Assembly: GCF_021917145.1 (NCBI RefSeq)
Contig: NC_061066.1
Coordinates: 8,935,961-8,999,960 of the forward strand
Source: Hypomesus transpacificus
Taxonomy: Eukaryota; Chordata; Actinopteri; Osmeriformes; Osmeridae
Direction: 5' to 3'
DNA: 64,000 nt
Shown: in pieces, positions 171 to 63,927 of the stretch
How the letters are laid out: every line of letters begins with the position of its first letter
Position numbering within the stretch: position 1 is the stretch's first letter
The notes under the pieces: generated by a model
Told to the model about the DNA's origin: nothing
The model's input: only the letters and a program-made list of their open reading frames with translations
Databases searched by the model: none
Translations under genes and position numbers: made by a program

Positions 171-8712
<8,542 letters not shown>

Positions 8713-9880: not shown

Positions 9881-12165
9881 GAGAGGCGGTTAGAACCGAA
9901 ACTGTACTGTCCTGTAGCTAGTGGTCCAGGACAGTGTAGCTAGTGGTCCAGGACAGTGTAGCTAGTGGTCCAGGACAGTGTAGCTAGTGGTCCGGACCAG
10001 CGCCTCCAGTGGTCCAGGACAGTGCCTCCGCTGGCACAGGACAGTAGCTTGTGGTCCAGGACAGCGCCTCCACTGGTACATGACAGTAGCTAGTGGTCCA
10101 GGACAGCGCCTCCGCTGGCACAGGACAGTAGCTAGTGGTCCAGGACAGCGCCTCCACTGGTACATGACAGTAGCTATTGGTCCAGGACAGCGCCTCCGCT
10201 GGCACAGGACAGTAGCTAGTGGTCCAGGACAGCGCCTCCTCTGGCACAGGACAGTGGTACGTGACAGCGCCTTCACTGGTACATGACAGTTACTGTTCTG
10301 TTGATAGTGGTACGCAACTGTCTCGTAACAGTTGCATTGGTTGTCTTGCAGCATTTTTGTTGACTGTCGCATAACATTTTAGAATGGGGGAACAGGTTAT
10401 AAGCTTTTATTTTCAAAATATAAGTTAAACTGTCTCTAAACCATACTTGACGTGTCGCTACAAGCTTACCATACAAAGTAGTCAATTTTTACATTGTGTG
10501 TAATGTAAAGCAGACTGTTACGTATTGACTTAGTAAAAACGTGTTTTACTCAAAGTAACTGAATGCACATGAGCCACCGCCGGAGACGTTATTATTGCAT
10601 TATTGTTATCAGCGCCTCCTAGTGACGGCGTGTATATCATTAATTTTAATAACTAAAGTCAACATAGGCTATAGGTTACCTACATTTTGCAGTCAAGGGG
10701 TGTCATTTATTGACATTGTTCTTCATATGGAAATAATGAAGAATTATGTTTTCTTTATTATTTTAAAGACAAAATCAAATATGAATGTGTTTATAATAAC
10801 AAGGTTTGAGTATTTTCATTTTCCAATACACTGTTAAATTGCAGTTCCCTGTCAATCAACACAGCCAGGTTACATTAGTTTTCTTTGTTTACAAGCATTT
10901 CTCTCAATAAAATAAAAATCAACACATACCATTAATATTTTCAATAAAAATAGATGTATTTGAAAACATAAATAATACAATTCAAAACACTTTTTGTACA
11001 TGTACAAAACACTGTAGGACACTATATGTTCACTCAAACACAGTTCCTGAGGCAAGGCACATCTCAGCCATGTACCGGCAAACGCTGTCGTTCTTTCTGA
11101 TGATGTGGATGGTGACCTTAACAAAGACATCAACAATTGAAATGCTCATCAAAAACAACGGTAACAGGACAGCGGGGATTTGTGCTCTTACAAATCGCCA
11201 CACTTCTATGGACTAATATACCATTTGTGTTAAAACGATATCATACAGTCAAATAGCCTATCTAATTTGCCTATCTTTTGACCTTATTTCAAAACCAAAT
11301 TGATTGTTAAAATCTGAAATCAGAATCAGAAAATGTCGCCTTACCCGCCATTGATTGCACCAACACTAAAATAAAATGTTCTAGAACTAAGGGCCAACTC
11401 TGGTTGAAACCAGCTCTGGTTTAAACCAATCAACTTAGAGACACACTGTCACAAGACAACAGGATACGCTATGTGAGTGTTGCGAGACAGTTAAAATAGC
11501 CTTCTTTAACATTATAGCCATAGGCTTGAACTTTTTAAACAAAACAGTTCCTAAGATATAAAACGGATCTTTCTGAATTCTGTGTGTTTTGTTAAGTGGA
11601 TACTGAAACAATTGTAGCCTACTTTTTTATATTTACATAAACAGATTTATGTGTAATATACAATTAATAGACGTTTAAATTCAGTTACTCTGAGTAAAAT
11701 ACGTTTTTACTAAGTCAATACGTAACAGTCTGTTACGTATTGGTTAGAGACAGTTTAACTTATATTTTGAAAATAAAAGTTTATAGCCTGTTCTCCCATT
11801 CTAAAATGTTATACGACAGTCAACAAAAATGCTGCAAGACAACCAATGCAACTGTTACGAGACAGTTGCGTACCACTATCAACAGAACAGTAACTGTCAT
11901 GTACCAGTGGAGGCGCTGTCCTGGACCACTGTCCTGGACCACTAGCTACTGTCCCGTGCCAGCGGAGGCGCTGTCCTGGACCATTGGAGGCGCTGTCCTG
12001 GACCACTGGAGGCGCTGGTCCGGACGGTCCGGACCACTAGCTACACTGTCCCGGACCACTAGCTACACTGTCCTGGACCACTAGCTACACTGTCCTGGAC
12101 CACTAGCTACACTGTCCTGGACCACTAGCTACAGGACAGTACAGTTTCGGTTCTAACCGCTACTG
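9881..12165. mobile_element. hAT-like non-autonomous element, 2.3 kb, with long repeat-filled inverted ends
   Basis: CAACTGGG occurs immediately outside both ends (9873-9880 and 12166-12173), an 8-bp target duplication as made by hAT transposases. The ends share GCGGTTAGAACCGAAACTG in inverted orientation. The left arm (9881-10562) and right arm (11680-12165) are inverted copies over their whole length, apart from tandem-copy number and an extra segment of about 70 bp in the left arm. Near each end are tandem copies containing TAGCTAGTGGTCCAGGACAG and GCGCCTCCACTGGTACATGA. The 1.1 kb centre has no recognisable transposase; an 88-codon minus-strand frame at 10870-11136 has no domain I know. 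It lies between prr5 and il15ra. Confidence 0.8.
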
Positions 12166-22860: not shown

Positions 22861-25800
22861 TTAGAAGAGAGCGAGCAGCAAAGCGTAGTTGATGGGCAGC
22901 TCCAGTCTCTCCTGCGTCTGAGGCAGAGCCTGCAACCTCTCTGGGGGGGCCAGCAGGCAGGCGCTGGGGCCCAAACGCTGCCACACACAACTCTCACACA
23001 GAGGACCCCCGGCATCCTCGCTGTCCATCTACAGGGAGAGGGAGGGAGAGAGAGGCTGGGATGAACAGGGAGAGAGGGAGGGAGGGAAAGAGGGAGGGAG
23101 GGAAAGAGGGAGGGAGGGATGAAGAGAGGCTGGGATGAACATGGAGGGATGGAGGGAGGGATGAAGAGAGGCTGGGATGAACATGGAGGGAGGGAGGGAG
23201 GGAGGGAGGGAGGGAGGGAGGGAGGGAGGGAGGGAGGGAGGGAGGGAGGGAGGGAGGGAGGGAGGGAGGGAGGGAGGGAGGGAGGGAGGGAGGGGAGAGG
23301 AGGGAGGGAGGGAGGGAGGGGAGAGGAGGGAGGGAGGCTGGGATGGACAGGGAGGGATGGATGCTCAGGAAGATGGTGAGGGAGGAGGAAAGTTGGGGAG
23401 TTGAAGTGCTGCGTGTGCCTATGTTCCTCACGTATTTGATGGGCAGCTTGCTCATGACGATGGTAGCATCTGGCATGACGCGGTTCTGACACTCTCGAAC
23501 CAAACAAACGGGCCTGTCGTCACTAGTCAGGGCGCTGGTCAACTCTGACCTCAGGAAGTACTCCTGGGGAGAACAGATGCACAGGTTAGCCTTCCAGTAC
23601 CACAGCCTGGAAGTGTGGAGGGGGAGGTGTGGACCTGTGGGGTTAGTTTAGTCAAGGAAGTCACCTTGAAACCTTGTCATCTTGACTTTCTAAGATGGGT
23701 ATAGGGCGGTGGGAGAACGTCTGACTGCAGATCAGTAGATTGCAGGTTCATATGAATAAAAAGATGAATATGACTACTCTGTTGGGATACAACTTTTGCT
23801 CTGCTGTGCACCGTTTTCTTAAATCCACAGAAGCTGTTGATTTACATTGCCTGAAAACAGATGTTTGAAAAACTGTTTGATGTCATCCAGTTTCCTGTCC
23901 ATTTCTCAGAATTAAGAGCCACTTTGAGACTAAACTAAAAGTTCACTAAGATATCCTGCCTTCAAGGACCATCTGGTAGAACACAGAGACAGAGGGCTGA
24001 TCTGGCAGACAACAAAGGCAACTCATGAATAATGAGAGAGAGAGGGACAGAGACAGAGAGACATAGAGAGAGAGAGACATAGAGAGAGACATAGAGAGAG
24101 AGACACAAAGAGAGAGAGAGGAAAAGACAGCAAGATAGACGGATGAAATGATGATTTTTTAAATTATTATTAAAGGTCCCATGACATGAAACGTTCTCTT
24201 TAGGAGGTTATATAACATTAATATGAGTTCCCCTAGCCTGCCTTTGGTCCCCTAGTGGCTAGGAATGTTGACAGCTGTAAACCAAGCCCTGGGTATTCTT
24301 CTCCGCCTTTGAGAAAATGAAAACTGAAAACTCTTGTTACGTCACAATAGGGAAGGGGGGCAGGTCTCACCCCGGCCAGAGTGAGGATGTTGGAGATGTT
24401 CTTAGTGATGATCAGGTTCCTCTGAGCCCTGGTCACTGCCACGTACAGCAGGTTCCACTCATCCTTCGGAATGTCACCTTGGGGGAGGAGGGGAGGAGGA
24501 GAGGAGGAGGGGAGAAGGGGGAGAGGAGGGGGGGAGAAGGGGGGGAGGAGGCGAGGAGAAGGGGGGGAGGAGGAGAGGAGGAGGGGAGGAGGGGGAGAGG
24601 AGGGGAGAAGGGGGGGAGGAGGAGAGGAGGGGAGAAGGGGGGGAGGAGGAGAAGGGGGAGAGGAGGCGAGGAGGGGGAGAGGAGAAGGGGGGGAGGAGGG
24701 GAGGAGGAGAGGAGGAGGGGAGAAGGGGGAGAGGAGGGGAGAAGGGGGGGAGGAGGAGAGGAAGGGGAGAGGAGGAAAGAACGAAGAGGCATAGTGCAGT
24801 GATTTACAGTGGGCAGTGCAGTGATTTACAGTGGGCTGACAGGATACGCACACACGCACTAAGACTAGGATAGGCGCACACACACACACACACACACTAT
24901 GATGAGGATCCGCAGACACACCTGCTGAGAAGCGGATCCTCTGCAGGTTGTGACGGGCCACAGGGACTTTGGCGAAGTCATCAGTGACCACCACTGTGTC
25001 AAACTCCAGACCTTTGGACTTGTGGACTGTCCCCAGAATGAAATCTGGACGAGGAGAAATTATTGAAATATGTTGTGTGTGTCCGTGTGTCATAGAGAGA
25101 ATGAAAGAGGAAGGTTTAGGTCGTGCTAAGAGCAGGATGTGATGCGTGAGTGGCGTACCTGCGTGCTGGTGGTCGTGCTCAGAGCAGGCTTTGATGCGGT
25201 TCACCAGCTCGGGGATGCGGTTGTTGTACTTCTCCACCACGGCCAGCTTGGTCTCCAGCTCGCGGTCCTGGGTCTTGGTGGCGTAGTCCTTCAGGCCAGC
25301 GTAGCCCCCCAGACTCACTGACCTGGAGAAGCTCCTGATGAAGCCGTCACTGATGCCTGCTCCAGGGAAAGGAGGGAGGAGGACAGGCCGTGAGAGAGAG
25401 GGGGGAGGAGACAGGGAGAGGGAGGGAGAGAGAGGGGGGGAGGAGAGAGAGGGAGGGAGAGAGAGGGAGAGAGTGAGAGGGGGAGGAGGAGAGAGGGAGG
25501 GAGGAGGAGAGAGAGGGAGAGAGAGGGAGGGAGGAGAGAGGAGAGAGGGAGGGAAGAGAGAGAGGGAGGAGAGAGAGGGAGGGAGGAGAGAGGAGAGAGG
25601 GAGGGAAGAGAGAGAGGGAGGAGAGAGAGGGAGGGAGGAGAGAGAGGGAGGGAGGAGAGGGAGGGAGGGAGGAGAGAGAGGGAGGAGAGAGGGAGGAGAG
25701 AGGCTTCTGATGGACTGGACAGGGAGGACAGAGGTAGAGAAGGAAGGGCCAGGGCAGGGATTAAGAGAGAGGGAAGGGAAAAAGAGAGCATGAGAGAGGG

Positions 25801-28424
25801 GAGGAGGGAAAGAATGAGAGAGGAAAGGAAGGAAGGGAATGACTTACCTTTTGTGCGTTTTTGTTCTGGCTGCATCAGAAGCCAGATGTCCATGATCTGT
25901 GCAAGGCCAAAGTTCTCAACCCCCTGGAGAGGTGAACACAGGTGATATACAACAAACCTGGGCGTGTGCACAAGCACTGTATCTTTTTGTGTGTGTGTGC
26001 GTGTGTGTCTCACCCCTACGATGTGCAGCCTGCAGCGGGGGTTAGCGTCGGTCAGCCTCACAGCCTCGCTGAACACAGTGACGTTACAGCGTGACAAGAT
26101 GGCCGTCTTCCCTCGAGCTTCACTCACACCTGACTGGACATGACTCACCACGTCTGAAGCCTCTCCCCTCACACTGCCTGGACACACACACACACACACA
26201 CACACAGACACACACACACACAGACACACATGCACAGACACACACACACACACATGCACAGACACACACACACACACAGACACACACACACACACAGACA
26301 CACACACACACAGACACACATGCACAGACACACACACACACACATGCACAGACACACACACACACACAGACACACACACACACACACACGCACAGACACA
26401 CACACACACGCACAGACACACACACACACACACATGCACAGACACACACACACACACACGCACAGACACACACACACACACGCACAGACACACACACACA
26501 CATGCACAGACACACACACACACATGCACAGACACACACACACACACATGCACAGACACACACAATCAAAAGAGGTAATCAGGTGTAGCATTCCAGTGCC
26601 GCTGTCAGGAACAGTGTTCCCTGGTGACTCACCTTCCTGCTGCCCTCCCACTAGGACCTTGCTGACGTGCTTACACACCTGCAAGATGCTGGCGCCAACA
26701 TAAGCAATCTCAGCTCCAAACCGAAAGCTCTGCAGGAACAATGAGCCATGTCACAATCACTGGACTGTTAGTAGAGGTGTGTGTGTACCTGTGTGAGGTA
26801 GAACAGGTGTGTGTACCTGTGTGAGGTAGTACAGGTGTGTGTGTGTGTGTGTGTGTACCTGTGTGAGGTAGGACAGGTGTGTGTACCTGTGTGAGGTAGT
26901 ACAGGTGTGTGTGTGTACCTGTGTGAGGTAGTACAGGTGTGTGTACCTGTGTGAGGTAGTACAGGTGTGTGTACCTGTGTGAGGTGGTACAGGTGTGTGT
27001 GTACCTGTGTGAGGTAGTACAGGTGTGTGTGTACCTGTGTGAGGTAGTACAGGTGTGTGTACCTGTGTGAGGTAGTACAGGTGTGTGTACCTGTGTGAGG
27101 TAGTACAGGTGTGTGTGTACCTGTGTGAGGTAGTACAGGTGTGTGTGCTGGACGTGTTCCAGGGCGTTAACAGCTCCTCTGAAGGTGTAGATCTGCTGGT
27201 GAGGGTCTCCTACCAACACCTTCCCACAGCGCTGAGGCAGCATGATGTCCATGATAGCTAACAGACACACAAACAGACTAGTACCTGGGGTACAAGGGCA
27301 TTGTGGGTAGTGTAGTCTTGTATCTGATGCACAGGAGTGAATAATGGTCTTATAGCACAGTGTAATCTTGGTAGGGGAAGAACAGGGGCATTGTGGGTAG
27401 TGTAGTCTTGTACCTGGAGTGCAGTCCTGCGCCTCGTCTATGAGGATGACGTCATATTTGTCCAGACACGGTTGGCTGAGCTGCCAAAGCTTCAGATACC
27501 CTGGAGATAGATGGACCAATCAGACTGCTGCCCTTCAAACGCATCCTTATCTCCAACTTAAACATGAAGACTCACTCACCATCATGGGTCATGTGGTGTT
27601 TTTCGTTGCCACCGTTTAGATCTACCATTTTGTCCCAGATATTTTGAGCGTCCCTTACATACATCTGCAGAAGCACATCCACATTCATTCGACACTTTCT
27701 GCAACACACATCACAGTTCAAACTGAACCCGTCTGGCCTATAAACCCAGGCTCAATGTTGCTCTTTGACGGTGAGATGGAGGCTCTGAGATGAAGGTGCC
27801 ATCTTGCTGACTCCTACACACCATTTTGGCCTCGTGGTCGATCTCCTGCTCCTGGCCCTGGTTGTTCTTGAACTTCCAGGGCACGTGCTCAGGGGTGACG
27901 TGTGTGTCGGTCGAGGCCATGTAGGAGCTGAGTGTGAGGGTCACCACCTTGGCGTTGATGAACCCCCCGCGACCTTTAGGCAGCCACCAGGCCACAGAGA
28001 AGGGCCTGAGGTTGGGGCAAAGCTGCTTTCTCACCTGGTACCTGGGAGAGGAGAGACGACAATGACTCACTGGCTGCCTTGCTGTCTGTCTGATGGTGAG
28101 ACTTGATGTGTGTCTGTGTCTGTCTGTCTATATGTCTGTCTGTCTGTCTGACCTGCTGTCTGTCTGATGGTGAGACTTGATGTGTGTCTGTGTCTGTCTG
28201 TCTGTCTGTCTATATGTCTGTCTGTCTGACCTGCTGTCTGTCTGATGGTGAGACTTGATGTGTGTCTGTGTCTGTCTGTCTATATGTCTGTCTGTCTGAC
28301 CTGCTGTCTGTCTGATGGTGAGACTTGATGTGTGTCTGTGTCTGTCTGTCTATATGTCTGTCTGTCTGACCTGCTGTCTGTCTGATGGTGAGACTTGATG
28401 TGTGTCTGTGTCTGTCTGTCTATA

Positions 28425-30231: not shown

Positions 30232-32080
30232 CCCTTACTATATAGACACTATAGACACTGCAAAAGGTGTGTAAGTGTGTATGTGTGTGGTACCTACCCC
30301 CTCGATGCCTAGTATATCAGGGATCCTGTGTTTGAGACAGGCCTCTGCCTGAGGAAAGAGATGATGCTTCCTCACACTGTGTAACACTGCCTCAGGCTTC
30401 ACCCGCTGGGTTGGCTTGTACTCCGCCATGAACCTGGAACACACACACACACACACACACAGGGTAGATGAGCGCATGAGCCTGAAAGCAACGTTTAGTT
30501 GTCTACATCCACCACAGGAGCCACCGGCGAAGCCTCACTTGATCATGTTGATGACACTCAGGGGCGTCTCCTTGACGATGTTCTGTCTCCTCAGCAGGAG
30601 GCAGATCTCCTTCACGGCCTCCTTCTCTCTCATCTGGTAGCGGAAATACAGCTTCTTCCAGGGAACAAACTAGCCACGAGACACAGAGCGACACCGAGTC
30701 AGTTAAACACACACAGAGACGAGCAGCCTTCACTAGTCCCACAAGAGGTACTAGTCCCACAATCCCACAACTTTGCTCTTTGCTTTCATTTCATTTTTTT
30801 TTTATGTATCGTTCTGTATCGGTATCGTTGTTTCTCACTTTTCTCTAGAAAACTATCAGTCCAACTCACCACCTCCTCATGCCCCATCGCTTCCTCCATC
30901 CTTTACCCCTCTTCCTCCGCCTCCCACCCCTTCTCCTCCCACGGCCCCTTCCTCCTCCATCCCCCCCCTCCCAGCTCCAGGCGCTCACCAGTGCCTGAGT
31001 GACGATGTCCCTCCAGCGGCGACACACCAGGCTGACGTGACGGTACAGGTCCTGGGCAGAGAGGAGGCTGAACACCAGCCTGAGCAGCTCCTCTGGAAGG
31101 TCCTCCACGTGGCCCTGTGGCTGCACCAGCCTGGTGCTGGTCCCCAGCAGCCCGTAGTGAGCATCAGGAAGGGCCTCCACTCCCTCCTCCTCCACCCGGG
31201 CTAGGTCCTCCACTCCCTCCTCCTCCACCCGGGCTAGGGCCTCCACTCCCTCCTCCTCCACCCGGGCTAGGTCCTCCCCTGATGCTTTGGCTGTTGTGCC
31301 ACACTCAAATTCGTCATCATCCCCAAACATAGCCTCCGTCATCCCTTCCAGATAGTTCACCACCTCCTCCTCCTCCTCCTCCTCCATGGGAGTGGCGAAT
31401 ATTTCTGCTAGCTCCTCCTTTGTGGGTGTGGAAAATTCATCCACAGGCTCCTCCTTTATGGGCGTGGCTGCCGCCTCTCGCAACGTCGGGCCTCTTGTGA
31501 ACGGGAGAGCTCTGCTGAGTCTGTCTGCGGTTGAGGACGAGCTTGGCTGGGCTGTTTTCTGAGGGCTGACCTTAACGACCCCTGTCACTGGGAAGAACTG
31601 GGTGATGCCTCTCTGGTACTTGTCAGTATCTCCATCTGGAGGGAGAAGGAAAAGAGGGGTGAAAAGGAAAATGACATAAAACACGTTACAGGAATACTGG
31701 CAATATGTTGTCAATCTGCCACCTGGATCTTGCACGTTACACAAATGACGTATCTAAAACTAAGGCTGATTACCGAGTTTTTTTCTCTTTGTGGGTGTTC
31801 GGGGATACTTTGCAGGCGACCTGGGGTAGAGTCCCCGGTTGGGGTCGGAATTGCTGCGGTCAAATGCATGGGGTTGGGTGAGGGCTTCGGTACCCTCTGG
31901 TGTCATACCGAGTTCGACACATTCCTCTGCATCCAAATGTCTCCGCTTTGCCTTCCCTGCAACAGCAAGAGAACGGCTAGACTGCATCAGTTGACTTGGT
32001 TACAGGACCCTAAAAAGTTAGGCTTTCTTGCGCACAATTATTTCTTGTGCACACCCCCTACCTTTAACGGCTGACTCCAT
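22861..32080 (-). CDS. fbh1: F-box DNA helicase 1 (FBH1/FBXO18), complete coding region
   Basis: Twenty-one coding exons join without a break to 1076 codons (human about 1090): 32080-32062, 31956-31774, 31635-30989, 30669-30539, 30433-30298, 30190-30006, 29886-29812, 29613-29522, 28854-28686, 28041-27822, 27664-27580, 27500-27414, 27257-27121, 26729-26633, 26177-26014, 25923-25848, 25356-25159, 25044-24922, 24477-24371, 23563-23432, 23028-22861. Visible motifs: PCNA-binding PIP box QRGITQFF (75-82); F-box [10 protein letters not shown]...VCRRWRD (from about 247); Walker A AFAGTGKTTT (487-496); Walker [10 protein letters not shown] (D669, E670); [26 protein letters not shown] (from 905); VAVTRAQ (954 on). 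FBH1 is a superfamily-1 3'-5' helicase and an SCF ubiquitin-ligase subunit; it strips RAD51 from DNA and acts at stalled replication forks in the nucleus. Several introns hold large tandem repeats reaching the splice sites. Confidence 0.97.
23031..23335. repeat. (GGGA)n tract directly upstream of fbh1 exon 21
   Basis: GGGA-rich, with a pure array at about 23187-23292 and variant GATGAAGAGAGGCTGG units before it. On the fbh1 sense strand it is (TCCC)n and ends at the TAG acceptor of the last exon (exon begins 23028). Confidence 0.95.
24481..24778. repeat. GGGAGGAG-type polypurine tract upstream of fbh1 exon 19
   Basis: About 300 bp of G and A only, save for a few GC bases, in variants of GAGGAGGGGAGAAGGGG. 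On the fbh1 sense strand it is uninterrupted pyrimidine that runs to within four bases of exon 19 (begins 24477). Confidence 0.95.
25365..25705. repeat. GAGAGGGAGG polypurine tract upstream of fbh1 exon 17
   Basis: Variants of GGAGGAGAGAGAGGGAGG over more than 300 bp; sense-strand pyrimidine. The exon 17 acceptor (exon begins 25356) lies just beyond its edge. Confidence 0.93.
26179..26563. repeat. (CA)n-based minisatellite with CACATGCACAGACA units
   Basis: CA dinucleotide runs broken at intervals of about 18-26 bp by GACACA, ATGCACAGA or CGCACAGA. Lies in the fbh1 intron before exon 15 (begins 26177), so it reaches the acceptor. Long open frames on both strands are artefacts. Confidence 0.95.
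26786..27146 (-). repeat. Tandem array of the fbh1 exon-13 5' splice site, 12 copies
   Basis: On the fbh1 strand the end of exon 13 (CACCTGTACTACCTCACACAG followed by gtacac) is repeated with 28, 30 or 32-bp spacing. Copies of the + strand string CTGTGTGAGG begin at about 26790, 26818, 26860, 26887, 26919, 26947, 26975, 27005, 27035, 27063, 27091 and 27121; the last is the real exon end. Nearly every copy keeps CAG|gtac, so each is a potential donor. Confidence 0.9.
28075..28465. repeat. Minisatellite of about 70-bp units, five copies
   Basis: Units share CTGATGGTGAGACTTGATGT followed by TGTCTGTGTC, (TGTC)n, TATATGTC and GACCTGCTG. Lies in the fbh1 intron between exons 9 and 10. Copy number of the CTGT run differs between units. 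Confidence 0.9.
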
Positions 32081-32964: not shown

Positions 32965-34180
32965 TCACTGTTTGAGCACAGGGAGTTCATTGGGCTTGAA
33001 GAAAGCCTGAGCCATGCCCATGCCAAAGATGTAAACTTTAGAGTCCACCACAATCTTTTCTTTCTTCATCAACTCTGCAAAAGAGAAAGAAACAACGCCT
33101 GTGTTTGCATTTGGTATTATCAGTTTAGATGCGTTAACGCCGTTAATAACGCGTTAAACTGACAGCACTAGTTTAGATATGTTGGTCATTCCTGGTACAG
33201 TAATGGTACATTCCTGGTTTAGCTGTCATAGAGGAAACATTGCAATTAAAATGATAAACACATTGGATGTATCATTGTGTCTGTGAGGAAGGTTATTACC
33301 ATTGACTTTCCTCTGGAATTCATCAAGGGGAAGGAGGATAACGTCAACAAACTCTGGAAGTAGAAAATAATAAAAACATTGTTACATTACAAAAGTAGAC
33401 AGCTCGAGAAAAACAGCTTGATATTGTTATTTATTACTAACTCTATTATTAGTGTGTGTGTGTATGTGTGTGAAATAAAATAACATTACCTCCTTCTCCT
33501 GCAAAATGAAATAAAAGTACAGAATTAATTTAGATGTCAAGAATGTTAAACTGTTATTAAATGTAACACAAATCAAGCAACATAAAAACAAAGTAAATAA
33601 AAACATCAAGCGGATATTAAATGTTGTTAAATGTTTGTAGGGCAGATGAGAACATGTACAGTATCCAAACATTTCAGCCTTAGAACTACATTTAGTCATT
33701 TAGCAGACGCTCTTATCCAGAGCGACTTGCAGTAAGTACAGGGACATTCTCCCCGAGGCAAGTAGGGTAGAGTGCCCTGCCCAAGGACACAACGTATAGG
33801 CACGAACCGGCAACCTTCTGATTAATAGTCCGACTCCCTAACAGCTCAGCCATCTGACCCCCAGAACTAATTTATCATCATCAAGCCCCAGGCTTACCCA
33901 GTTGCTGAGAGGGTTGGATGTTCTCTGGATCATCTCCATTGATGTTTACCATGATTATCTGTGTGGTGCAGTTAGATAGACCAGGGTCCAAACATGTCAC
34001 TGAGGGGGAGGAGGGGTGTTTAGAAGGCAGTGAAACATGCATGATCTAAACCTGTGTGATGGATTGGCTAACTTGAAACCAGACATGGGTCAAAACACAA
34101 TTTGAAATCAATCCATTTTATTTCTTTACTGTGCTAGATTGTGTTTGTGTGTCACTACTCACCCAAGTAAATGGTTGGCC

Positions 34181-34219
<39 letters not shown>

Positions 34220-35267
34220 TAAGGACCCACCTGGGGTGACCCCCACCACCTCCCCTTTGTAACCAGTCTCCTCCTTCAGCTCCCTCAGTGCAGCATCCTC
34301 CGCACTCTCACCTTCATCAATCAGACCTGAAGACATCGAAACGGTCATTTGTTTAACGTCACACAATCAATTACAGTCATTTGCGGATATCAGACCGTAC
34401 ACGCATGGCATCTGAAGACTGATAAATTCCACAGTTAAATGTTAGCCGTTTCAGTTTCTGCTACTACTCCATGAGCTTGGGCCAACTGTCATGCAGGCTG
34501 TTGGTCTGGATCTAACCTGCAGGGAACTCCAGGGTGTAGCATCCCATAGGTGGGCGGAACTGCTTCACCATGACAACAGAGTCTTTGTGCAAGGTCCTTT
34601 TCAGGAGGGCGATTACCCCCACACCTGGGAAGGTACAAAAAAGAGATGTTTGCTTATAAGATCCCCACAAAACCACACACACACACATTACACGTATACA
34701 GCACACACACACACATTACACATATACAGCACACACACACATTACACATATACAGCACACACATTACACATATACAGCACACACACACATTACACATATA
34801 CAGCACACACACACATTACACATATACAGCACACACATTACACATATACAGCACACACATTACACATATACAGCACACACACACATTACACATATACAGC
34901 ACACACACACACACCATCTGCCTCTGTGTTGGATTGTCTGGTGGTCCTTTTGGCTGTCTCCCAAATTCTGTTGAAAGACAAAATGGAGAGAGCTTACAGT
35001 AACTGTAGCTGGCACAACACCAACCCACAGATGAATTGGTTCTGTAAAATACAATATACCTTGTGTTTCCGGCGGGGTCAACATAAGTGGTTTTCTCAAG
35101 CATCACCCACTTTCCAGATGCAAGTAGCTAGATGGATGAAGTAGTTTCAAGTTGAGTTAAACCCATTACACGTACTACCTGACAATGAAACCTCACGACA
35201 GATGTATTACCTCCTCCTTTACAATGTGAGGAGTGGTTGTAGCTTTAGAATCTGTGTTGCTGCTCAT
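32965..35267 (-). CDS. nudt5: ADP-sugar pyrophosphatase (Nudix hydrolase 5), complete
   Basis: Nine coding exons give 218 residues (human 219): 35267-35211, 35127-35060, 34967-34915, 34624-34517, 34326-34231, 33999-33898, 33498-33490, 33353-33300, 33074-32965. The Nudix box is intact: GLIDEGE (96-102) and RELKEETGY (110-118) fit GX5EX7REUXEEXGU, with the metal-binding glutamates E111, E114 and E115. Upstream [20 protein letters not shown] and downstream [12 protein letters not shown] match NUDT5. The enzyme hydrolyses ADP-ribose and other ADP-sugars to AMP and sugar phosphate, and in mammals supports nuclear ATP synthesis from ADP-ribose. Exon 33490-33498 is a 9-nt microexon adding GEG before FVDVILLP; leaving it out also keeps frame, but human GDGEFVEV supports inclusion. 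Start ATG 35267 follows AAAG. Head-to-head with cdc123, as in human. Confidence 0.96.
33131..33170. mobile_element. 40-bp insertion with perfect 8-bp target duplication (hAT end remnant)
   Basis: GTTTAGAT is present at 33123-33130 and 33171-33178, directly flanking a 40-bp insert that begins GCGTTAACGCCGTTAATAAC and ends GACAGCACTA. The insert resembles one end of a fish hAT-type repeat I recall (TAGTGCTGTCAGTTTAACGC inward). It lies in the last nudt5 intron. Confidence 0.6.
33688..33863 (-). mobile_element. tRNA-derived SINE, minus-strand copy
   Basis: Reverse complement of the 18726 SINE: starts ACATTTAGTCATTTAGCAGA, includes AGAGCGACTTGCAGTAAGTA and CCGGCAACCTTCTGATTA, ends CTCAGCCATCTGACC. 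In a nudt5 intron, between exons at 33898 and 33498. Confidence 0.85.
34672..34914. repeat. ACACATTACACATATACAGC minisatellite, about ten copies
   Basis: Units of 20-26 bp: ACATTACACATATACAGC joined by variable (CA)n. It fills the nudt5 intron between exons 3 and 4 and ends at the exon-3 donor (34914). Confidence 0.93.
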
Positions 35268-54724: not shown

Positions 54725-55224
54725 NNNNNNNNNNNNNNNNNNNNNNNNNNNNNNNNNNNNNNNNNNNNNNNNNNNNNNNNNNNNNNNNNNNNNNNNNNNN
54801 NNNNNNNNNNNNNNNNNNNNNNNNNNNNNNNNNNNNNNNNNNNNNNNNNNNNNNNNNNNNNNNNNNNNNNNNNNNNNNNNNNNNNNNNNNNNNNNNNNNN
54901 NNNNNNNNNNNNNNNNNNNNNNNNNNNNNNNNNNNNNNNNNNNNNNNNNNNNNNNNNNNNNNNNNNNNNNNNNNNNNNNNNNNNNNNNNNNNNNNNNNNN
55001 NNNNNNNNNNNNNNNNNNNNNNNNNNNNNNNNNNNNNNNNNNNNNNNNNNNNNNNNNNNNNNNNNNNNNNNNNNNNNNNNNNNNNNNNNNNNNNNNNNNN
55101 NNNNNNNNNNNNNNNNNNNNNNNNNNNNNNNNNNNNNNNNNNNNNNNNNNNNNNNNNNNNNNNNNNNNNNNNNNNNNNNNNNNNNNNNNNNNNNNNNNNN
55201 NNNNNNNNNNNNNNNNNNNNNNNN
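54725..55224. other. Assembly gap of exactly 500 N
   Basis: A round 500 is normally a placeholder for unknown length. The left side ends inside a CTCATCATCTCTACATCTCT tandem repeat, the likely cause of the break; the right side begins inside ccdc3 intron 1. Confidence 0.97.
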
Positions 55225-57747: not shown

Positions 57748-60700
57748 ATGGCAACAGGCACCCCCATGGTGAACGGGGAAGTGTCCCGCCACCCCGCGGG
57801 AGGAGTGCACCCCAGCCCAGGAGAGGGAACTCTGGAGGGCACGTTGCATCAGATGAACATCCTCATCCAGGAGAACAGGGACCTGAAGGGTGAGGGCCTG
57901 GTGAGGGGGTAGTGGTGGTTTAATGAGAGACAGAGAGAGAGACACAGAGAGAGAGACAGAAAGAGAGACAGAGAGACAGACAGAGAGAGAGAGACAGACA
58001 GAGAGACAGACAGAGAGAGAGAGACAGAGATAGTTAATACTTTATTGGGCCCGACCCAATAAACAAACATTTGTTTAGGGCCCCGTGATTTGTTTGCCCC
58101 CCTCCCCCACAAAAGGGGAAAAGAAAAAAAAGAAATTGCCAATCAAAAGGCCCCCCTACACTATTTCTGTCTGGGATCCCCAAAACAGAAGGGGTACATG
58201 TGTGTACTGTACTCAACCTACCCTGTGTCTCCCCCTTGCAGAGGCTCTCAGAATGACCAACCTGTCGATGAAGGAGCGCTTTGAGGACCTGTCCACCTGG
58301 AAGGAGAAGCAGAGAGAGGAGAGAGACTTCCTGGAGGGAAAGCTGGATGAGGCGAGGCGGCGCATTGAGGCGCTCACCTTAGACGACCAGGAGCCGAGGA
58401 GCCGGAGGGGGGAGCAGGAGGGAGGAGCAGAGGGTAGGGGACAGGTCAGTAGTCTGTCTTTGTCAGTTTTAGACAGCTTTATTTAACCAGCTGTATTACG
58501 TTTTATTCTTTCTCACTAGTCAGCAATTCATCTCAGGTAAAAAAAAAAATGTTTGTGAAGGTTCCCCCTTGGCTTTGGCTGGCATATGAACGATGTTTGA
58601 TTTGATCGTTTCATTTATACAGCTGATGCAGATGTTTTGATTGGGTACCATCTAGGGAGGTCCAGCCAATCAGAGTGCAGAGCTGGTGGCGCTGCGTGCC
58701 CAGGTGGCTCGTCTGCAGGCTGAGAAAAGTGACCTGGTGGCCATGAACTCTGAACTGCAGCTGAAGACTGGCCAGGACTCATCTGAGGACTCTTTCATAG
58801 AAATCAGGATTGCATCAGTGAGTAACACACACCACACACACACACACTCTCTCTCATGACCACATTGTGTGTGTTTGTGTTTAATTCTTTCCGTTGGCCG
58901 TCTCCAGGATGGAGAGTTGGGAGCGAAGGATGTGTGTGACGGCCTGGCCTCCAGGTTTGACATGAGCGCTTCTCGGCTGGAGTCTGAAGACTTGACGGTG
59001 AGCCAGCTGCTTCAGTCCCTGAGGAAGGAGACCCAGAGGGTGGAGAGGCTGCAAATTGAGCTCCAGGCTGCGAGGGCCAGGTGAGGCCTAACACCATGGT
59101 CTCACTACCACGTCACCTTTGATGATTCGAAGTGTTGGTGTGTTTCCTTTGTATCTGAGCTACTGATTTGCGGTGTGTGTGATGCGTTTAGGATTACAGA
59201 ACTGGTGGAGAAGGAGAGCTCAGAGAGATACACTCAGACCTCCCTCCAGCTGGAGGAGAAAGGGGATGACCCACCCACCGCCGCAGGGGCTGCGATCGAG
59301 ACAGAACAGAAGACGCAACAGGAAAATTCTGGAGCGGGGAAGGTACGCTACCAAAATATGCGTTCTTATGCTTGAAAACAAATCAATTTGTCTGCCAGTA
59401 GAGAAAGAACATTTCATCTGATAAGATTTCTTAAAACAATGTGTCGTTTACTTAAAGGAAGTCACTAGGTTATCCATTTACACTAGAAACAAGTTCAACT
59501 GGATTTAAAATCTATAAACAAGGTCATCCCACTTGGCTAGATGTAGAATCTTGGCAGTGTACATCCAGAATGCTCAGTCTCGCTGAGAGAGCAGTCAGAC
59601 GAGAGCTCATGCGGTTAGTTTCATATTCAACATCTCACAAAGCCCGACAGTAACCCAGGAATCTTGTTTGTGTGCGTGTCCCAGACTGAGTCTGAGGTGG
59701 AGCACCTGCAGGGCCAGATGATGACACTGTTCAAAGAGTTGCAGCAGGCTCAGAGCAAACTGGACGAGGCTGAAGGCATGAAGAAGAACCTGCAAGACAG
59801 GTGAGAGGGAGGGAGGGAGGGAAGGAGGAAGTAGAGAGGGAGAAAGTAGAAAGTTGGAGGGAGGGACCATCAGTAAGAACAAAACAAACTTTTTCCTTCT
59901 CTCTACTGTCCTTTCCATCTCCCTCCCTCTCTCTCTCCGTCTCTCTCTCTCCGCCTGTCCTCTCTCGTCCTCCGCCCCAGATGCAGGGATGTGGAGCAGG
60001 ATGTGGTGACACTGAAGGCCCAGCTGGTGGAGAAACAGCTGGTGCAGAGTGAGAATGACCGGCTCAAGCTCCAGGTGGACAGCAACAAGCAGCAGATCCA
60101 GCTGGAGCAGAGGAAGGCTGGAGAAGAGAGGTGGGTGGGGTGGGGTAATATATATTATTAAATGTAACATATTTGATATATGTAAATATTCTGCTTACAT
60201 ATGAATCAACTCAAGAAATTACCTACTCACACATATACACCCACATACACACACACTGAGGCGTGGCAGTGCTGGTTTGGAAATCCCCTGTTTATCTTTA
60301 GAAACCCCTCTTTCAGTTTCCACTGGTCATTGGTAGTTAACCTAAGTCATCAGTAACCCCCCTCCCCTCTCAGGAACAACCTGAGTCATCAGTAACCCCC
60401 CTCCCCTCTCAGGAACAACCTGAGTCATCAGTAACCCCCCTCCCCTCTCAGGAACATCCTGAGTCATCAGTAACCCCCCTCCCCTCTCAGGAACAACCTG
60501 AGTCATCAGTAACCCCCCTCCCCTCTCAGGAACATCCTGAGTCATCAGTAACCCCCCTCCCCTCTCAGGAACATCCTAAGTCATCAGTAACCCCCCTCCC
60601 CTCTCAGGAACATCCTAAGTCATCAGTAACCCCCCTCCCCTCTCAGGAACATCCTGAGTCATCAGTAACCCCCCTCCCCTCTCAGGAACATCCTAAGTCA

Positions 60701-63700
60701 TCAGTAACCCCCCTCCCCTCTCAGGAACATCCTGAGTCATCAGTAACCCCCCTCCCCTCTCAGGAACATCCTGAGTCATCAGTAACCCCTCTCCCCTCTC
60801 AGGAACATCCTGAGTCATCAGTAACCCCCCTCCCCTCTCAGGAACATCCTGAGTCATCAGTAACCCCCCTCCCCTCTCAGGAACATCCTAAGTCATCAGT
60901 AACCCCTCTCCCCTCTCAGGAACATCCTAAGTCATCAGTAACCCCCCTCCCCTCTCAGGAACATCCTGAGTCATCAGTAACCCCCCTCCCCTCTCAGGAA
61001 CATCCTAAGTCATCAGTAACCCCCCTCCCCTCTCAGGAACATCCTGAGTCATCAGTAACCCCCCTCCCCTCTCAGGAACATCCTGAGTCATCAGTAACCC
61101 CCCTCCCCTCTCAGGAACATCCTGAGTCATCAGTAACCCCCCTCCCCTCTCAGGAACATCCTGAGTCATCAGTCAGGAACAACCTCATCAGTAACCCCCC
61201 TCCCCTCTCAGGAACATCCTGAGTCATCAGTAACCCCCCTCCCCTCTCAGGAACATCCTGAGTCATCAGTAACCCCCCTCCCCTCTCAGGAACATCCTAA
61301 GTCATCAGTAACCCCCCTCCCCTCTCAGGAACATCCTGAGTCATCAGTAACCCCCCTCCCCTCTCAGGAACATCCTGAGTCATCAGTAACCCCCCTCCCC
61401 TCTCAGGAACATCCTGAGTCATCAGTAACCCCCCTCCCCTCTCAGGAACATCCTGAGTCATCAGTAACCCCCCTCCCCTCTCAGGAACATCCTGAGTCAT
61501 CAGTAACCCCCCTCCCCTCTCAGGAACATCCTGAGTCATCAGTAACCCCCCTCCCCTCTCAGGAACATCCTGAGTCATCAGTAACCCCCCTCCCCTCTCA
61601 GGAACATCCTGAGTCATCAGTAACCCCCCTCCCCTCTCAGGAACATCCTGAGTCATCCCCCCTCCCCTCTCAGGAACATCCTGAGTCATCAGTAACCCCC
61701 CTCCCCTCTCAGGAACATCCTGAGTCATCAGTAACCCCCCTCCCCTCTCAGGAACATCCTGAGTCATCAGTAACCCCCCTCCCCTCTCAGGAACATCCTG
61801 AGTCATCAGTAACCCCCCTCCCCTCTCAGGAACATCCTGAGTCATCAGTAACCCCCCTCCCCTCTCAGGAACATCCTGAGTCATCAGTAACCCCCCTCCC
61901 CTCTCAGGAACATCCTGAGTCATCAGTAACCCCCCTCCCCTCTCAGGAACATCCTGAGTCATCAGTAACCCCCCTCCCCTCTCAGGAACATCCTGAGTCA
62001 TCAGTAACCCCCCTCCCCTCTCAGGAACATCCTGAGTCATCAGTAACCCCCCTCCCCTCTCAGGAACATCCTGAGTCATCAGTAACCCCCCTCCCCTCTC
62101 AGGAACATCCTGAGTCATCAGTAACCCCCCTCCCCTCTCAGGAACATCCTGAGTCATCAGTAACCCCCCTCCCCTCTCAGGAACATCCTGAGTCATCAGT
62201 AACCCCCCTCCCCTCTCAGGAACATCCTGAGTCATCAGTAACCCCCCTCCCCTCTCAGGAACATCCTGAGTCATCAGTAACCCCCCTCCCCTCTCAGGAA
62301 CAACCTGAGTCATCAGTAACCCCCCTCCCCTCTCAGGAACATCCTGAGTCATCAGTAACCCCCCTCCCCTCTCAGGAACATCCTAAGTCATCAGTAACCC
62401 CCCTCCCCTCTCAGGAACATCCTGAGTCATCAGTAACCCCCCTCCCCTCTCAGGAACATCCTGAGTCATCAGTAACCCCCCTCCCCTCTCAGGAACATCC
62501 TGAGTCATCAGTAACCCCCCTCCCCTCTCAGGAACATCCTGAGTCATCAGTAACCCCCCTCCCCTCTCAGGAACAACCTGAGTCATCAGTAACCCCCCTC
62601 CCCTCTCAGGAACATCCTGAGTCATCAGTAACCCCCCTCCCCTCTCAGGAACATCCCAAGTCATCAGTAACCCCCCTCCCCTCTCAGGAACATCCTGAGT
62701 CATCAGTAACCCCCGTCCCCTCTCAGGAACATCCTGAGTCATCAGTAACCCCCCTCCCCTCTCAGGAACATCCTAAGTCATCAGTAACCCCCCTCCCCTC
62801 TCAGGAACATCCTAAGTCATCAGTAACCCCCCTCCCCTCTCAGGAACATCCTAAGTCATCAGTAACCCCCCTCCCCTCTCAGGAACATCCTGAGTCATCA
62901 GTAACCCCCCTCCCCTCTCAGGAACATCCTGAGTCATCAGTAACCCCCCTCCCCTCTCAGGAACATCCTGAGTCATCAGTAACCCCCCTCCCCTCTCAGG
63001 AACATCCTGAGTCATCAGTAACCCCCCTCCCCTCTCAGGAACATCCTGAGTCATCAGTAACCCCCCTCCCCTCTCAGGAACATCCTAAGTCATCAGTAAC
63101 CCCCCTCCCCTCTCAGGAACATCCTAAGTCATCAGTAACCCCCCTCCCCTCTCAGGAACATCCTGAGTCATCAGTAACCCCCCTCCCCTCTCAGGAACAT
63201 CCTGAGTCATCAGTAACCCCCCTCCCCTCTCAGGAACATCCTGAGTCATCAGTAACCCCCCTCCCCTCTCAGGAACATCCTGAGTCATCAGTAACCCCCC
63301 TCCCCTCTCAGGAACATCCTGAGTCATCAGTAACCCCCCTCCCCTCTCAGGAACATCCTGAGTCATCAGTAACCCCCCTCCCCTCTCAGGAACATCCTAA
63401 GTCATCAGTAACCCCCCTCCCCTCTCAGGAACATCCTAAGTCATCAGTAACCCCCCTCCCCTCTCAGGAACATCCTGAGTCATCAGTAACCCCCCTCCCC
63501 TCTCAGGAACATCCTGAGTCATCAGTAACCCCCCTCCCCTCTCAGGAACATCCTGAGTCATCAGTAACCCCCCTCCCCTCTCAGGAACAACCTGGCCCAG
63601 CTGAAAGACGCCTACACCAAGCTGTTTGAGGACTACAATGAGCTGAAGGAGGACAGGAAGAAGGTGAGTCCCCGCCCATCACCCGGCTCCAAAAACCCTC

Positions 63701-63927
63701 ACTCCTACTGCCACTTCTACTAAACACACAGTTTATCCCTTCTCTGACCTCTGACCCTGTGTGACCTCTAGGGGTCAGCTTCTAAGGAGCTGGCAGATGA
63801 CCTGCAGGTGCGCCTGGTCGCGGCAGAGCAGGCCCTGGCCACCAAGCAGCAGAAAATAGACGTCATGAAGCAGGAGATCTTCCAGAAGGAGAAGGAACTG
63901 GAGACCATCTCAGTGTTCCAGGCTCAG
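57748..63927 (+). CDS. optn: Optineurin, N-terminal two thirds; continues past right edge
   Basis: Exons 57748-57889, 58242-58444, 58656-58817, 58908-59080, 59192-59342, 59685-59800, 59981-60130, 63585-63663 and 63772-63927 join in frame to 444 codons. The N-terminal coiled coil ([20 protein letters not shown]...[19 protein letters not shown]) matches the NEMO-like region that binds TBK1. The LC3-interacting motif is conserved: EDSFIEI with F162 and I165 preceded by Ser161, the equivalent of the TBK1-phosphorylated serine of human [24 protein letters not shown] and [19 protein letters not shown] also match. Optineurin is a cytosolic ubiquitin-binding adaptor in selective autophagy, NF-kB and interferon signalling. 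The ubiquitin-binding UBAN and zinc finger lie beyond the window. Intron 7 (60131-63584) is almost wholly a 39-bp minisatellite derived from its own acceptor. Confidence 0.96.
58035..58200. repeat. Dispersed repeat shared with il15ra intron
   Basis: ACATTTGTTTAGGGCC...TTGCCAATCAAAAGGCCC, the same order of words as at 19540-19655, in the optn intron before exon 58242. A (GAGACA)n tract at 57925-58030 precedes it. Confidence 0.5.
60335..63584 (+). repeat. 39-bp minisatellite made of the optn exon-8 3' splice site, about 83 copies
   Basis: Each unit holds AGTCATCAGTAAC, CCCCCTCCCCTCTCAG and GAACATCCTG (or GAACAACCTG). The true acceptor at 63584 has the same pyrimidine tract and CAG, and the exon starts GAACAACCTGGCC, so each unit carries a copy of the acceptor plus the first ten exon bases. 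Acceptor CAGs run from 60371 at 39-bp steps. Variation is limited: CCTGAG/CCTAAG, ATC/AAC, and irregular units near 61167 and 61655. Period 39 leaves frames open on both strands, which explains the long minus-strand frames. Confidence 0.97.

Follow-up and report, generated by a model that had tools for sequence, protein, structure and literature searches.

The optineurin gene (optn) of the fish Hypomesus transpacificus carries, at the end of its intron 7, a tandem array of a 39-bp unit in which the 3′ splice site of exon 8 is repeated more than 80 times. The array lies in a 64,000-nucleotide stretch of contig NC_061066.1 (NCBI RefSeq assembly GCF_021917145.1, positions 8,935,961 to 8,999,960 of the forward strand), referred to below as the window; all positions are those of the window, and features are collected in Table 1. 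We interpret the array as a minisatellite built on a splice junction. It is likely, in our judgment, that the acceptor adjoining exon 8 is chosen through exon definition, and that the remaining acceptors act as minor decoys whose products are removed by decay. The whole analysis concerns this one assembled sequence, from which all splice outcomes were predicted.

Tandem Repeats Finder (TRF) delineated an array with a period of 39, 83.1 copies and 96% matches, in agreement with the original prediction of about 80 tandem copies of the exon 8 acceptor. Each unit consists, in order, of a branch-like AGTAAC, a C-rich pyrimidine tract, CAG and the sequence GAACA(A/T)CCT(G/A). Its 5′ part corresponds to the end of the intron and its 3′ part to the first ten bases of exon 8, slightly altered, which bears out the proposal that the unit is a chimera of intron end and exon start. 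The left flank of the array is GTTAACCTAAGTCATCAG, as had also been stated. Units were first located using TCTCAGGAAC, a probe that is blind to lost acceptors, and a recount with CAG|GAACA was made to reduce this bias. CAG|GAACA occurs 84 times between 60335 and 63600, with the true site among them, CAGTAAC occurs 82 times in the array, and CCCCCCTCCCCTCTCAG is found in exact form 80 times, in line with the claim that nearly all copies keep these motifs. One CAG|GAACA, starting at 61174, has lost its pyrimidine tract, and discounting it leaves 83 acceptors. These are separated by 39 nt in 80 of 82 steps, with single steps of 58 and 33 nt.

To a striking degree the acceptors are the same. When 23-mers made up of 20 intron and 3 exon bases were compared, 79 of 83 were letter-identical, including that of the true acceptor at 63584|63585; the four odd ones comprise two with C to T changes, one with a C to G change and one without the branch motif. 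A scoring model of 20+3 bases consequently cannot tell the true optn acceptor from 78 decoys, and the expectation that the spliceosome faces about 83 near-equal acceptors was well founded. Mean pairwise divergence among the 80 full units is 1.4%. By eye, ten unit types can be distinguished, which are not arranged in repeated blocks, and two unique length variants are also present. The array is thus a minisatellite, with highly alike units in the range of ~10-100 bp arranged head-to-tail. It also has a property of splice-site variable number tandem repeats (VNTRs), in which the splice site of the neighbouring exon is part of the repeat; the site is an acceptor in optn and a donor in fbh1, a second gene of the window that is described below. 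Purine content is 36% in the array, as opposed to 65% in exon 8. Close tandem acceptors are known as the NAGNAG class, and there, as here, acceptors compete for one donor. NAGNAG acceptors, however, lie within ~9 nt of each other on a common branch point, an arrangement that differs from that of optn, where acceptors are 39 nt apart and have their own tracts, 82 of them with a branch-like motif.

Exon models of optn and fbh1 were picked by hand to hold the reading frame open, and "exon 8" denotes the eighth coding exon by our own count. The exon 2 donor of optn was set at CAG|GTCAGT because an alternative choice broke the frame downstream; no base was altered. The resulting nine coding exons (57748-63927) comprise 444 codons with no stops. 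With its continuous nine-exon frame the gene looks intact, and the open 444-codon frame suggests that the correct exon 7-8 junction is in use. Skipping exon 7 keeps the frame and introduces no stops, while skipping exon 8 introduces two. Compared with PDB chains, the 444-residue product scores best with optineurin (1.5e-14 and 4.7e-14) and next with NEMO (best 5.6e-8), and three further optineurin chains match the end of the product. For a shorter product (exons 6-9) NEMO is the top PDB match (9.5e-7), followed by four optineurin chains. In Pfam, a 424-residue version matches NEMO (1.3e-18) and, at residues 370-424, CC2-LZ (1.4e-10). The latter match takes in exon 9 in full and the final three residues of exon 8. 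Together the PDB and Pfam matches support the identification of the gene as optineurin.

We then read each of the 82 decoy acceptors in the phase of exon 7. RNILSHQ followed by a stop is obtained from 74 decoys, RNNLSHQ and a stop from 5, and RNIPSHQ and a stop from 1; another peptide is obtained from one, and the decoy at 61154, ahead of the 58-bp step, enters a shifted frame of 825 codons that stops inside exon 8. The original prediction had held that a decoy gives one of the first two peptides and then TAA, which is the case for 79 of 82, the other three departing from it. Its broader claim that every decoy truncates OPTN applies without exception, as translation is halted before or inside exon 8 by 82 of 82. 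Nonsense-mediated decay is governed by a 50-55 nt rule. The stop is more than 55 nt ahead of the exon 8/9 junction in 81 of the 82 decoys and 34 nt ahead of it for 61154, and in decoy transcripts the exon 9 junction lies beyond the exon 8/9 junction. The CC2-LZ region is downstream of every decoy stop save that of 61154, whose frame, a different one, ends in exon 8.

Two coding interpretations of the array itself were rejected. Open frames of 830 codons on the plus strand and 361 codons on the minus strand run through it, but a unit length divisible by three permits such frames, and they are not in the phase of exon 7 except after decoy 61154. A microexon model (CAG|GAAC...CA|GTAACC, 18-nt exon) was discarded on the strength of its donor, which occurs 82 times and reaches only -2.5 on a local splice-site scale that was trained on 27 sites of two genes and is rough. 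On this scale the 167 GT sites of the array score from -5.96 to 2.19 (82 at -2.5, 66 at -1.2 and 16 at 0.21), and the 28 annotated donors of optn and fbh1 from -0.98 to 12.1.

A precedent is provided by the human ABCA7 intron 18 VNTR, which has a 25-bp unit that includes the exon 18 donor (PMC5954066; statements on ABCA7 follow the sections of that paper used here). In both genes a minisatellite abuts an exon and contains its splice site. The ABCA7 donor one unit on from the normal site gives a retention product of 2 +/- 1%, independent of array length, and its low use, out-of-frame product and susceptibility to decay resemble what is predicted for the optn decoys. Skipping of exon 19, on the other hand, became more frequent as the array lengthened. 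In one brain region it stood at 45 +/- 10%, and in 90% of the samples from that region the alternative ABCA7 transcripts, taken together, outnumbered the canonical transcript. The two arrays differ in that ABCA7 repeats a donor, whereas optn repeats an acceptor together with a branch-like motif and a pyrimidine tract, and in that the ABCA7 array is known to vary in length, from about 12 to 427 units, with measured effects on splicing, whereas the optn array is known from one sequence. The optn array is an acceptor-type and very large form of splice-site VNTR, the counterpart of the ABCA7 donor VNTR. No acceptor-type array was named among the matches listed from the open-licence literature, which is weak evidence of absence. 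By analogy with ABCA7, the near site in optn should beat the decoys, and an effect of length, if any, would appear as exon 7 skipping.

How might one acceptor be chosen from so many? The spliceosome would meet 83 acceptors, 79 of them indistinguishable to 20+3-base scoring. Three features set the true one apart: it adjoins exon 8, it precedes a strong donor by 79 nt, and of all the acceptors it is the most distant from the exon 7 donor. In leave-one-out scoring of the 28 donors, that of exon 8, AAG|GTGAGT, shares first place. According to the sections of Carranza and colleagues drawn on here, exon definition prefers the sites closest across the exon and intron definition those closest across the intron, and, among near-equal 3′ sites, the class with a long upstream and a short downstream intron acts as exon-defined (PMC9225289). 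With introns of 3454 nt upstream and 108 nt downstream, exon 8 would probably fall in this long/short class. The acceptor beside exon 8 would most likely be picked by exon definition, since no other acceptor has a strong donor 79 nt downstream across purine-rich exon sequence. Among the decoys, use would be restricted to the last few, with resulting exons 118-235 nt long, and to the first few, with introns from 243 nt upwards, and it would be at a low level; under the decay rule given above, the early stops in their products would be expected to lead to nonsense-mediated decay. Array length, if it matters, might act as in ABCA7, through skipping or delay of the in-frame exon 7 rather than through decoy use.

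Several observations weigh against the choice of the exon-proximal acceptor. Its local score is modest (24th of 28), and decoys could be favoured by the position of the first of them, which is transcribed earliest and lies only 243 nt beyond the exon 7 donor. In the same sections of the competition study, upstream 3′ sites were preferred overall, and strongly so between short introns (PMC9225289). The ABCA7 example, with its level of exon 19 skipping, shows splicing that is far from clean (PMC5954066). If intron definition were to win, the first decoys (60373 onward) would be used most and optn would be largely silenced on this allele. The shortest possible intron, its early transcription and the upstream preferences just cited all speak for this outcome; the intact frame and junctions of optn across nine exons and the exon-defined behaviour of the long/short class argue against it, and we consider it quite improbable. 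The optn locus pits the exon-definition and intron-proximity rules against each other, and this is its main interest.

A different role would follow if decoy choice and decay set the output of optn, with array length as a dial. Truncation by 82 of 82 decoys, 81 of them with stops placed where decay is expected, is consistent with such a device, as is the finding that ABCA7 expression fell, as exon 19 skipping rose, when the VNTR grew (PMC5954066, in part). Selection on the splicing motifs was not detected, however; among the 80 full units, two of five variable columns fall within the 29 intron-like columns (P = 0.11), so motif integrity may be plain homogenisation. The ABCA7 one-unit retention product, moreover, was unchanged by length. 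Dosage set by the array, as envisaged in the original prediction, is therefore not favoured, and we regard it as unlikely. A broader proposal is that minisatellites arising on splice junctions are a recurring, mutable kind of splicing element in the lineage, optn having the acceptor type and fbh1 the donor type, and that copy number in optn tunes output through the use of decoys, slower excision of intron 7 or the skipping of exon 7; we put this forward as speculative and rather doubtful.

The array might instead have been inflated in copy number or mis-joined during assembly, and a 500-N gap (54725-55224) does occur elsewhere in the window, at the end of a TCTTC-rich array. The ten unit types, the lack of repeated blocks by eye and the two unique length variants are hard to reconcile with such an artefact, and both array ends are clean, with the array running into an intact optn exon; we hold an artefact to be very unlikely. 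Arrival of a dispersed repeat at the junction is scarcely credible. The window does contain a Tc1-like transposase open reading frame and a long inverted-repeat element, but the optn unit includes the first bases of exon 8 itself, no second locus was found in the window within 14 of 39 mismatches on either strand, and the exact unit pattern gave 0 matches in viral_contigs and genome_contigs, which are non-animal collections by description.

With regard to origin, a unit made up of the intron end and the first bases of exon 8 records a duplication across the intron-exon boundary, and so supports the prediction that the array was founded by duplication over the 3′ splice site. As the anatomy of the unit shows, tandem duplication of 39 bp spanning the intron 7/exon 8 acceptor created a second complete acceptor; slippage or unequal exchange would then have amplified the unit, kept the copies alike and lengthened the intron from ~243 to 3454 nt. 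The founding join had been tentatively placed at a shared ACCT. A shared AACCT is real and may mark the join, but matches of at least 5 bases occur at 7 of 50 offsets (20-69, 39 included); AACCT is thus weak evidence for the join, and microhomology was rejected as proof of it. In outline, the earlier account of origin is sound. A potato RdRp gene likewise underwent tandem duplication over an intron-exon boundary, in which an intron 3′ end and the start of the next exon were duplicated and branch site, pyrimidine tract and AG inherited (PMC4974935, in the sections cited here). There, one extra copy gave a new intron with a recruited donor, whereas optn has 83 acceptors and only poor donor matches within its array.

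We also determined whether arrays are concentrated at splice junctions. Tandem repeats cover 13-20% of the window under three definitions. Only 2 of 56 junctions (28 acceptors and 28 donors of optn and fbh1) are inside arrays, compared with 7.4-10.9 under a rotated repeat mask. The probabilities of so few are 0.01, 0.03 and 0.18, an apparent avoidance in two of three settings, although the rotation null disregards the resistance of exons to repeats and the result is read as non-enrichment rather than proven avoidance. Repeats were not enriched in the 30 nt ahead of acceptors either (4, 3 and 2 of 28, against 6.2, 5.5 and 3.9 expected). Enrichment at junctions was rejected on these counts, and the optn array seems to be an ordinary minisatellite that arose at a junction.

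The second example is in the gene for FBH1 (F-box DNA helicase 1), on the minus strand. Twenty exons were annotated by hand and read through to a stop, the start of the gene being outside the model; their product, of 1069 residues, has a PDB match to F-box DNA helicase 1 at 3.1e-271. Beginning at the end of exon 12 and reaching as far as 26788, the 16-mer CACACAG|GTACACACA occurs in 12 copies; the intron measures 391 nt. The unit, of 28-42 nt, combines exon end and intron start, a mirror image of the optn acceptor unit, and this array is closer to ABCA7 than the optn array is. Of 11 decoy donors, those at 27090, 26946 and 26886 preserve the frame modulo 3, and 27090 would insert ten residues with no stop. 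The true donor ranks 24th of 28 in the local scoring, a modest result. At an offset of 30, the exon tail and the last intron stretch have an imperfect direct repeat in common, which could represent a last unit that has diverged or the homology that founded the array. Findings on competing donors bear on this array: in the sections of the study cited here, exon-defined minigenes with two identical strong donors used the upstream donor exclusively, and downstream 5′ sites were preferred before equal strength was required (PMC9225289). The fbh1 case shows that the process is not peculiar to optn.

Elsewhere in fbh1, two other introns terminate in AG-free tracts made of repeats, 358 nt long before exon 18 and 424 nt long before exon 14 (24478-24837 and 26182-26564, minus strand), and a 33-bp repeat within the second annotated exon encodes ARVEEEGVE repeats (31170-31277, minus strand). 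Upstream of fbh1 lies a piece of a NUDIX domain (34121-34366, minus strand, 4.7e-10), perhaps of NUDT5. A 16-bp C-rich array (TRF 6990-8106) belongs to a plus-strand zone (6919-8113) with no AG for 1193 nt ahead of a likely acceptor at 8113|8114; the open frame that follows, to 8712, matched no Pfam family. The transposase noted above is a 358-codon open frame (1918-2991, plus strand) with the Tc1-type domains HTH_Tnp_Tc3_2 and DDE_3. The arms of long inverted repeats at 9886-12160 bear the same tandem repeat, oppositely oriented, and the longest pair measures 210 nt (93%); the element looks like a transposon with repeat-bearing ends.

Table 1. Coordinates of the optn and fbh1 features, as positions of the window.
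Feature	Position	Strand	Basis or remark
optn 39-bp tandem array, 83 intact acceptors and one degenerate copy	60341..63594	+	TRF, motif counts
58-nt step with degenerate copy	61154..61211	+	CAG|GAACA from 61174 without pyrimidine tract; frame of decoy 61154 shifted
33-nt step	61641..61673	+	unit without AGTAAC branch-like motif
optn coding exon 7, 150 nt	59981..60130	+	donor GAG|GTGGGT at 60130|60131
optn intron 7, 3454 nt	60131..63584	+	243 nt with first acceptor alone
optn coding exon 8, 79 nt, 65% purine	63585..63663	+	acceptor 63584|63585, donor AAG|GTGAGT
optn coding exon 9	63772..63927	+	nearly whole CC2-LZ match, inside window
fbh1 intron 12 tandem array, 12 identical splice donors CACACAG|GTACACACA	26788..27120	-	true donor 27121|27120

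Experiments on how one of several equal splice sites is chosen usually rely on constructs that contain two. In the duplicated-splice-site constructs of Reed and Maniatis, as described in PMC9225289, and in the minigenes of the latter paper, equal sites compete for one partner, as they would here; those constructs, in the sections cited, are laboratory-built with two sites, whereas the present arrays are natural and offer 83 acceptors or 12 donors. A single sequence thus contains 83 near-identical acceptors and, 33 kb apart, 12 identical donors, with position and exon context as nearly the sole differences, so that the relative weight of exon definition, intron proximity and first-transcribed-first-used choice could be judged from ordinary RNA-seq. 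The optn locus is a useful natural test of splice-site choice. As the acceptor counterpart of the ABCA7 donor VNTR, it may also represent a kind of array that is easily missed by short-read work. If splice-junction minisatellites did prove to be a recurring mutable class through which optn output is tuned, they would provide heritable, fast-changing control of an autophagy receptor.

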